NCBI GenBank assembly: GCA_903830625.1
Contig: CAIKUK010000023.1
Span: forward strand, 1-45,003
Direction of reading: 5' to 3'
Length of the DNA stretch: 45,003 nucleotides
Origin: Candidatus Yanofskyibacteriota bacterium
GTDB taxonomy: Bacteria > Patescibacteriota > Minisyncoccia > 2-02-FULL-40-12 > GWA2-44-9
Shown here one piece after another: positions 2,796 through 37,657 of this stretch. Positions within the stretch are counted from its first letter, which is position 1. Every line of letters begins with the position of its first letter. A model generated the notes under the pieces. The model had not been told where the DNA came from. It ran no database searches and saw only the letters and a program-made list of their open reading frames with translations. The position numbers were made by a program, and so were the translations under genes.

Positions 2796-3176
2796 GGGGA
2801 TGAAAGGCCTCGACACTGGTTCTTTCTACAACTGACGCTGAGAGTGGATGGTTGTTAACCACTTTAATTTCCCGACTAAATCTTGTAACTGGCAATCAAA
2901 ATACCAATTACGCTTTCGCCTAACGTTTCGTTAAGCGTTCGTCCCGCCTTGGCGGGATAAGCCATTCCACCGCGATGCTCGCTAGCGGATCATGGAGTGT
3001 CATTAGCGAACTTTAGCAGAACCGTGGTCCTTCCGAATTCTGCCGAAAAAATTGTAAGGGCTAGCGTGCGTTTATTTTGTTCATTTTTTAAGCGCTCGCA
3101 AAAAATCAAATGAAATATCTCAGTACACGTCGTTGTGGTAAACCTCTGGACCCGGATTCAATTTCCGGCATCTCCA
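2796..3176 (+). ncRNA. ssrA: transfer-messenger RNA (tmRNA); tag ORF 2891-2923 encodes GNQNTNYAFA*
   Basis: GGGGATG acceptor 5' strand pairs with CATCTCC (G3-U70 type pair kept), T-arm CCGGA-TTCAATT-TCCGG; internal GGC AAT CAA AAT ACC AAT TAC GCT TTC GCC TAA; CCA apparently not encoded. Confidence 0.9.
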
Positions 3177-3188
3177 CTAGATATTAAT

Positions 3189-3214
3189 CAAAACTCGCCT
3201 GACGGCGAGTTTTG
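3189..3214. terminator. terminator downstream of ssrA
   Basis: CAAAACTCGCC-TGAC-GGCGAGTTTTG. Confidence 0.75.
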
Positions 3215-3222
3215 AGTTGGAT

Positions 3223-3490
3223 AAAAAAGAATTGGCCCACCGCGGGACGTGCAAGGCGAAAGCCTGGACGTCGCGCGGTGGGCCGGACTGTGGGGTGGAC
3301 CTCTCGGCCTCCTCAGTGACCTGCTAAGCAGAGTATGGGATACGCTTGGTGAGATCCCTTTTACCCCGGCCCCCTTGATGTGGGGGTCATTGGCCTTGCG
3401 GGCGACTAGCTAGCCCGGAGCACCACGGATGAGGACTTCCAGTAGGTTGGCCTCCCCAGGAAACCGAGTTTACTCAAAAGTGCTGTGAAC
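3223..3490 (-). ncRNA. structured non-coding RNA of unidentified family
   Basis: minus-strand promoter TTGACG-16-TATTAT (3524-3497), no convincing ORF, multiple stems including an 11-bp long-range helix, 3' hairpin 3234-3284 followed by TTCTTTTTT. Confidence 0.65.
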
Positions 3491-3496
3491 CTTTTA

Positions 3497-3524
3497 ATAA
3501 TAGGCCAACGTTATTAATCGTCAA
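3497..3524 (-). promoter_or_regulatory. promoter TTGACG-16-TATTAT
   Basis: hexamers read on the minus strand upstream of the ncRNA. Confidence 0.65.
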
Positions 3525-3565
3525 TACCTCTCTGTTGAGAACGCCTGCCTGCCGGCAGGGGCGAC

Positions 3566-4012
3566 TTAATCTTCACTAAGCCCTCTTTGTTTTCGTCTTG
3601 CCGAATCCTTGTTCTTTAACGATGAGCGTTTATCGTATTTCTTTTTGCCGCGGGCAATACCAATGAGGAGTTTGAGCTTCCCCTTAGAGTCATAAATCTT
3701 TAAGGGGATAAGGGTGAGGCCTTGAGATTGGGCTAGGCCGGTAATAACGTTGATTTGTTTTTTAGATAATAGAAGAGTGCGGCTGGCGGTGGGGTCATAA
3801 TCGGGAGGCGTGTTGTTTGGTTGATAGGGAGAAATAGTGGCGCCGATGAGCTGAGGCCGGCCGTTTATCATTTTTACGAACGAACCTTTGATGGAAGCCT
3901 TGCCCGATTTGATAGCTTTGACTTCGGTGCCTTTCAATACTAAACCGGCCTCGAGCGTTTCCAGGATTTCATAATCAAAGCCCGCTTTGGAATTATTCAC
4001 GTATTCCGCCAT
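3566..4012 (-). CDS. smpB: SsrA-binding protein SmpB
   Basis: NNSKAGFDYEILETLEAGLVLKGTEVKAIKSGKASI...KKKYDKRSSLKNKDSARR. Confidence 0.95.
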   Translation of the reverse strand: MAEYVNNSKAGFDYEILETLEAGLVLKGTEVKAIKSGKASIKGSFVKMINGRPQLIGATISPYQPNNTPPDYDPTASRTLLLSKKQINVITGLAQSQGLTLIPLKIYDSKGKLKLLIGIARGKKKYDKRSSLKNKDSARRKQRGLSED

Positions 4013-22690: not shown

Positions 22691-22971
22691 TGGCGGGGCC
22701 GACGGGGCTCGAACCCGCAACCTCGTCCGTGCACTGGTTCAGAACTTTCGTACTGAGGTGGACTATATCATTCCCATAGATTAAATCTTTAGGGACTCCG
22801 GTATCTAGTCTCTACGGCGCTCTCATCTTGCTGAAGATAAGTTCCCACGGTGTTCGCATGTCTTGCTGAAGATTTAGCCTTCACCGTTATCCCGGAATTT
22901 TTCAATCCGCCTTTCGGCTGGAAAGCTGCATATCTACAGGGACGCACTCTAACCAATTGAGCTACGGCCCC
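22691..22971 (-). tRNA. tRNA-Asp(GUC), interrupted; exon 1 22971-22936, exon 2 22731-22691
   Basis: spliced GGGGCCGTAGCTCAATTGGTTAGAGTGCGTCCCTGT/CACGGACGAGGTTGCGGGTTCGAGCCCCGTCGGCCCCGCCA folds as a full cloverleaf with encoded CCA. Confidence 0.93.
22732..22935 (-). other. group I self-splicing intron (204 nt) between U35 and C36 of tRNA-Asp
   Basis: exon ends in U, intron ends in G; P1 CUGU/AGAUAU/GCAG with U-G at the splice site; Q-like AAUCUUCAGCAAGA, R-like AGAGACUAGA, S-like GAUAUAGUCC; P7 GACUA/UAGUC. Confidence 0.9.
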
Positions 22972-37453: not shown

Positions 37454-37657
37454 ATGAGAAGTGATGCTTGGCAATTCGTGCATGTTCCAACCGGCGGCGT
37501 GTTCCGTGATCCACTCGTTCCTGATGCGGTTTTCATCAAGTTGTCGGAACCTGTCAATGTTTCGGGCCCGAAGAACGCCCGAATGGCAGGGGATCACATC
37601 ACCGGGACCAGCTATCGGTTCTTCGAAGATTCCCATTTGGTCGTTCCAGTCACCTAG
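37454..37657 (+). CDS. hypothetical protein, 67 aa
   Basis: AAGGAGGTGATGGT-ATG strong SD directly after the preceding ORF. Confidence 0.55.
   Translation: MRSDAWQFVHVPTGGVFRDPLVPDAVFIKLSEPVNVSGPKNARMAGDHITGTSYRFFEDSHLVVPVT

Follow-up and report, generated by a model that had tools for sequence, protein, structure and literature searches.

A lineage-specific GC-rich insertion between smpB and the tmRNA gene in a 598-kb Candidatus Yanofskyibacteriota genome

Organization of the tmRNA-smpB locus

The window, by which we mean the whole stretch of 45,003 nucleotides that was analysed, is contig C23 of a host genome (G000) of 598 kb in 24 contigs, scored as 100% complete; so small a genome suits an assignment to the Patescibacteria. 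In this contig the tmRNA gene (ssrA) and smpB are arranged tail to tail, and the element studied here lies between both genes on the strand of smpB, which confirms the location given in the original prediction of a structured RNA gene. The locus comprises the following features:

2796-3179, plus strand: tmRNA gene (ssrA), with the tag GNQNTNYAFA
3188-3215, both strands: bidirectional terminator (inverted repeat I3), from alignment with L007, L009 and L012
3216-3565: lineage-specific insertion of 350 bp, flanked by the terminator common to tmRNA and smpB and by the stop codon of smpB
3228-3223, minus strand: run of six T, 3' of the hairpin, read directly
3284-3234, minus strand: very strong terminator-like hairpin, GGCCCACCGCG...CGCGGTGGGCC, with a UUUCG loop
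3285-3490, minus strand: putative transcript body, GC-rich, without ORF and without excess structure
3524-3497, minus strand: promoter-like site TTGACG-16-TATTAT, matching 10 of 12 consensus positions
3566-4012, minus strand: smpB

The insertion has a GC content of 0.60, whereas the genome averages 0.45, and only 0.4% of the windows of the genome reach such a value. As a separate observation on the neighbouring gene, a palindromic insert follows the tag stop at one shared position in the tmRNA of the window (about 2937-2962) and in that of the sister L005, but its sequence differs between the two (TCCCGCCTTGGCGGGA, ACCAGCTTAGCTGGT); the sister L007 has none.

The tmRNA-smpB junction in relatives

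In the sister L007 the end of tmRNA, the hairpin of the bidirectional terminator and the stop codon of smpB follow each other in direct succession, with no room for the element, and the same bare junction was found in the other genera L009, L012 and L017, the spacer measuring 33-42 nt across all four. The terminator at 3188-3215 thus serves both tmRNA and smpB in relatives and is parted from smpB in the window by the insert. Aligned with these relatives, 3216-3565 is shown to be an insertion directly 3' of the smpB stop codon; repeated loss in the sisters, instead of insertion, could in principle give the same picture. A target-site duplication, a transposase or an att repeat that would reveal how the insert entered was not found.

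Other relatives carry different material at this position. The junction of L005 contains a small ORF that, by reading the sequence, resembles a GIY-YIG endonuclease, and those of L011 and L024 contain other ORFs. L018 has, between tmRNA and smpB (1247-1444), a distinct and species-specific sRNA-like unit with the promoter-like site TTGACA-17-TATACT, about 100 nt and a terminator, and behind this unit stands another CATCTCCACC, resembling the tmRNA 3' end, which suggests an insertion that duplicated that end. The tmRNA-smpB junction is therefore a spot that tolerates different small inserts in different relatives, and none of this ties the element to trans-translation. The functional link, a question that the location had raised, did not hold: junctions in relatives with unrelated inserts or none argue against it.

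The element shares with the genomic islands at tmRNA genes (Islander, PMC4383910) that it is extra DNA beside ssrA. It differs from them in that it lies beyond the tmRNA terminator and behind smpB, spans only 350 bp, has no integrase and shows no duplicated tmRNA 3' end.

Searches for homologs of the element

BLASTN searches against 28 genomes of the family and 45 of the order returned the element itself as the sole match. A covariance model of the element core, built from this one sequence, gave no match in 387 genomes of the class and 382 of the phylum, and none at E<=10 in the three sister species, although a fast-evolving functional RNA could slip past both kinds of search. Searches of phage and plasmid collections by BLASTN yielded no homolog. 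An exact 20-base pattern, run against 85,462 species genomes, hit only a clpC-like coding region (GEIPFTP), a chance match. Lack of conservation had been named beforehand as counting against the predicted RNA gene, and no conservation was found.

The flanking genes behave differently, as identity with L005 is 81% for smpB and 83% for tmRNA, and with L007 77% and 82%, respectively; in both comparisons the flanks align with the window and nothing aligns within the insert. With flanks aligning at 77-83% in the sisters, a housekeeping RNA would have shown up. The literature yielded nothing specific on such an element.

Promoter-like site and terminator

The site TTGACG-16-TATTAT, presented originally as a clear promoter, is present, but such sites do not exceed chance, since 3 of them occur in the 1.55-kb region compared with 1.2 +/- 1.2 in shuffles. 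A promoter at 3524-3497 is therefore plausible on its sequence match and by itself not significant, chance matches being expected in the region.

The predicted 3' hairpin followed by a T run proved to be the one part of the prediction that exceeds chance. On the minus strand, the stability of the hairpin at 3234-3284 has z = -7.9, a value equalled by 0 of 300 shuffles, and it ranks first by stability among 4003 sites with a hairpin and T5 in a genome-wide scan that covered about 96% of the 598-kb genome plus the window. The promoter/terminator scan did not list this hairpin by itself, probably because its stem is interrupted. With the T6 run, the element has what defines an intrinsic terminator, a GC-rich hairpin and then a U tract on the same strand; read from its sequence, the hairpin is a terminator and does not belong to a folded RNA domain. 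It resembles intrinsic (Rho-independent) terminators in its long GC-rich stem, its tight loop and the T run that follows on the minus strand, and differs from them in that the stem is unusually long (about 20 bp), in that no site of this kind in the genome is more stable, and in that AATTC sits between stem and T run. No T run follows the hairpin on the smpB side (3546-3563) on the minus strand, and the terminator of the insert is therefore the next clear one for smpB.

Folding of the transcript body

The original prediction listed internal pairing, including an 11-bp long-range helix, which was not confirmed as meaningful. The full element folds with z = -3.5, and this value is due to the terminator hairpin: the body without the hairpin (198 nt) is no better than shuffles, with z about -0.1 (-0.06 and -0.13 in two runs). 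A 166-nt core gave z of -1.3 to -1.6, and the longest stem was at least 11 bp in 44 of 200 dinucleotide shuffles (22%). Among the controls from the same genome, the RNase P RNA scored z = -6.6, an ORF-free unit on contig C10 scored z = -6.8, and the tmRNA, which is pseudoknotted and a weak scorer, had z = -2.3.

Given that the body matches shuffles and that stems of at least 11 bp are common by chance, the helices drawn in the element are no evidence for a folded RNA. Stability above shuffles, as a structured RNA family would have, was found for the terminator hairpin only and not for the body, and the search for covarying helices, with zero homologs found, had zero covariation to show. The claim of structure thus disappears once shuffles, controls and relatives are brought in, and it takes more than a promoter-like site, GC-rich DNA and a strong terminator beside ssrA to call a structured RNA gene.

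Comparison with known RNA families

An Rfam scan of the element found nothing at E < 0.3; the weaker matches, to snoRNA, microRNA and sRNA models, lie far under the gathering scores and are attributed to chance. The earlier failure to fit RNase P, SRP or 6S RNA was borne out, and the scan pointed to no other family either. For RNase P RNA (RF00010) the element had no match at E<=10, and the genome has its own at C24:10357-10777 with 108 bits. For 6S RNA there was likewise no Rfam match at E<=10, and the predicted fold of the element is multibranched, as opposed to the single long hairpin with a central bubble of 6S.

The bacterial SRP RNA model (RF00169) matched neither the element nor any other position in the host genome at E<=10. 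This gap, together with an Rfam scan of the genome that gave neither SRP nor 6S RNA above threshold, is what would speak for a highly divergent housekeeping RNA of one of these two kinds. Against this stand the lack of any match in the element at E<=10, the sisters, which lack the element although their smpB and tmRNA DNA is 77-83% identical, and the behaviour of RF00169 itself, which fails in all eight family genomes tested, a lone weak match (E = 7.6) appearing in G015. Since the model fails across the family, the missing SRP RNA does not point at the element and is a family-wide detection problem, and we consider a divergent SRP or 6S RNA extremely improbable. As a side observation, in the host assembly no 6S, 23S or 5S RNA scored high enough to pass the Rfam thresholds.

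A new structured RNA family tied to trans-translation would fit the location between smpB and ssrA and the z of -3.5 for the whole element. The z vanishes when the terminator is left out, the same junction in relatives holds unrelated inserts or none, no credible Rfam match appeared at a permissive threshold, and no relatives were found in the sister, order, class and phylum samples. The evidence does not support a new structured RNA family, and we judge one serving trans-translation very unlikely.

A base-pairing link to tmRNA was likewise considered and rejected, as the words common to both transcripts, GCTTTCGCCT and CGTCCCGC, are same-sense and not complementary. Likeness of the element to tmRNA, to RNase P RNA, to the ORF-free unit on C10 and to other GC-rich intergenic stretches of the genome did not go beyond shuffles except for the C10 unit, for which a marginal 26-point match was obtained (3 of 100 shuffles as good, in 20 comparisons). 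Elsewhere in the window, a group I intron match at 22739-22961 on the minus strand lies below the gathering score (E = 1e-4) and is followed by an apparent tRNA 3' half; another, in L048 (8642-8852), is above threshold.

Coding potential and orphan-gene cassettes

The element region accommodates no ORF with a common start, and six-frame pieces of the element had no match in Pfam. With a host-trained model, codon scores did not exceed those of shuffles, and with a cassette-trained one no frame stood out, so that the absence of a convincing ORF stated at the outset stands.

A promoter-like site with a strong terminator some 260 nt away, combined with the lack of an ORF and a GC content of 0.60, would suit an orphan, species-restricted sRNA gene with its own promoter and terminator, acting in trans by base pairing or protein binding and with little stable fold outside the terminator. 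Many bacterial sRNAs are species-restricted and weakly folded. Promoter matches of this quality are, however, expected by chance in the region and there is no conservation as a sign of selection, and we regard this explanation as possible but rather unlikely.

The genome contains about 17 short ORFs of high GC content that have strong Shine-Dalgarno sites and terminators of exceptional strength, among them those in L058, L054, L067, L052, L039 and at 37454-37657 of the window. These cassettes were found by listing the strongest terminators of the genome, a list that also includes ordinary genes and overlapping alternative frames. The few cassette ORFs that were scored have a codon usage unlike that of the host, and the one tested for homologs (88 aa) is nearly species-specific, its sole match being a weak one from a single sister species (49% over 45 aa). 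The element resembles these orphan-gene cassettes in its promoter-like site, GC-rich body and very strong terminator, as well as in being lineage-restricted and placed between conserved genes; it differs in having no readable Shine-Dalgarno site with an ORF and no codon signal. A short ORF with a Shine-Dalgarno site that ends just before the terminator, as in the cassettes, was not found in the element, and the resemblance is one of layout, not of sequence, and not one of membership.

This layout, identical to that of the coding cassettes of the genome, would also suit a small protein-coding cassette that has decayed. A Shine-Dalgarno-like GGGGAGG lies on the minus strand 8 bases 5' of a CTG (3441), from which a frame interrupted by a single TAG runs into the terminator; it could be a decayed start, a weak candidate. 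There is no codon-usage signal in any frame under either the host- or the cassette-trained model, the frame does not stop before the hairpin, and Pfam gave no match, all of which makes a decayed coding cassette improbable.

As an observation in its own right, the unit on C10 (L056 1500-1830, minus strand; G000:C10:21399-21729) is ORF-free, GC-rich and strongly folded (z = -6.8), has a terminator and adjoins a dnaJ-like gene. Rfam returned nothing for it at the gathering threshold, and BLASTN found no homolog in the 45 order genomes.

Interpretation of the insertion

The reading that we favour, and hold to be likely without being firm, is that of a species-specific GC-rich cassette of 350 bp behind the smpB stop that now provides the 3' UTR and terminator of smpB and possibly yields an orphan transcript. 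It builds on what comparison established, namely the insertion, the parting of smpB from its old terminator, the lack of an ORF and of detected homologs, and the strength of the hairpin. The cassette (3216-3565) would have been inserted between smpB and the terminator formerly common with tmRNA, bringing along its promoter-like site and its exceptionally strong putative intrinsic terminator. The smpB mRNA would now run into the cassette and end at 3284-3223, and a short orphan non-coding transcript starting at 3490 from the cassette's own promoter may also be made. The cassette would have the layout of an orphan-gene cassette with its ORF missing or decayed. The simplest account gives it no role beyond that of a 3' UTR and terminator, and outside the terminator it looks like common intergenic DNA of one species that may be transcribed.

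A more far-reaching idea, which we think doubtful, is that the element belongs to a pool of non-coding RNA cassettes, each specific to a species, that are gained and lost between conserved genes in Patescibacteria-like genomes. Such cassettes, with their own promoter, a GC-rich RNA and a very strong terminator, would be a parallel to the orphan protein cassettes, and L056 1500-1830 and the L018 insert at the ssrA-smpB junction would be further members. If expressed, non-coding cassettes would supply very small genomes with young RNAs from a source that has received little study.

A covarying hairpin repeat

A repeated long-hairpin element, R2 (alignment A4), has a conserved GCCGAG(A/G)G, a hairpin with a TTCGCTGGAA loop and the common sequence GCCGAGAG. 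In six sequences, aligned by sequence, 8 of 9 pairs have changed on both sides, a result matched by 0 of 500 shuffles, and R2 folds with z of -6 to -8.6; it has no Rfam match at the gathering threshold. The element is not a member, as the R2 model, run with filters off, reached at best 1.6 bits in 3200-3600. R2 looks like a structured mobile repeat or an RNA family and deserves follow-up more than the element does. Two copies lie in this genome, and four relatives each have one no more than about 1 kb away from smpB, the copy in L005 being weak (E = 0.0025):

L060 2240-2500 (G000:C14:42039-42299): R2 copy
L039 19584-19638 / L083 1507-1725 (G000:C9:19435-19659): R2 copy
L006 1284-1482, L009 2448-2566, L018 2130-2186 and L005 1215-1272; also L081 and L084: R2 copies
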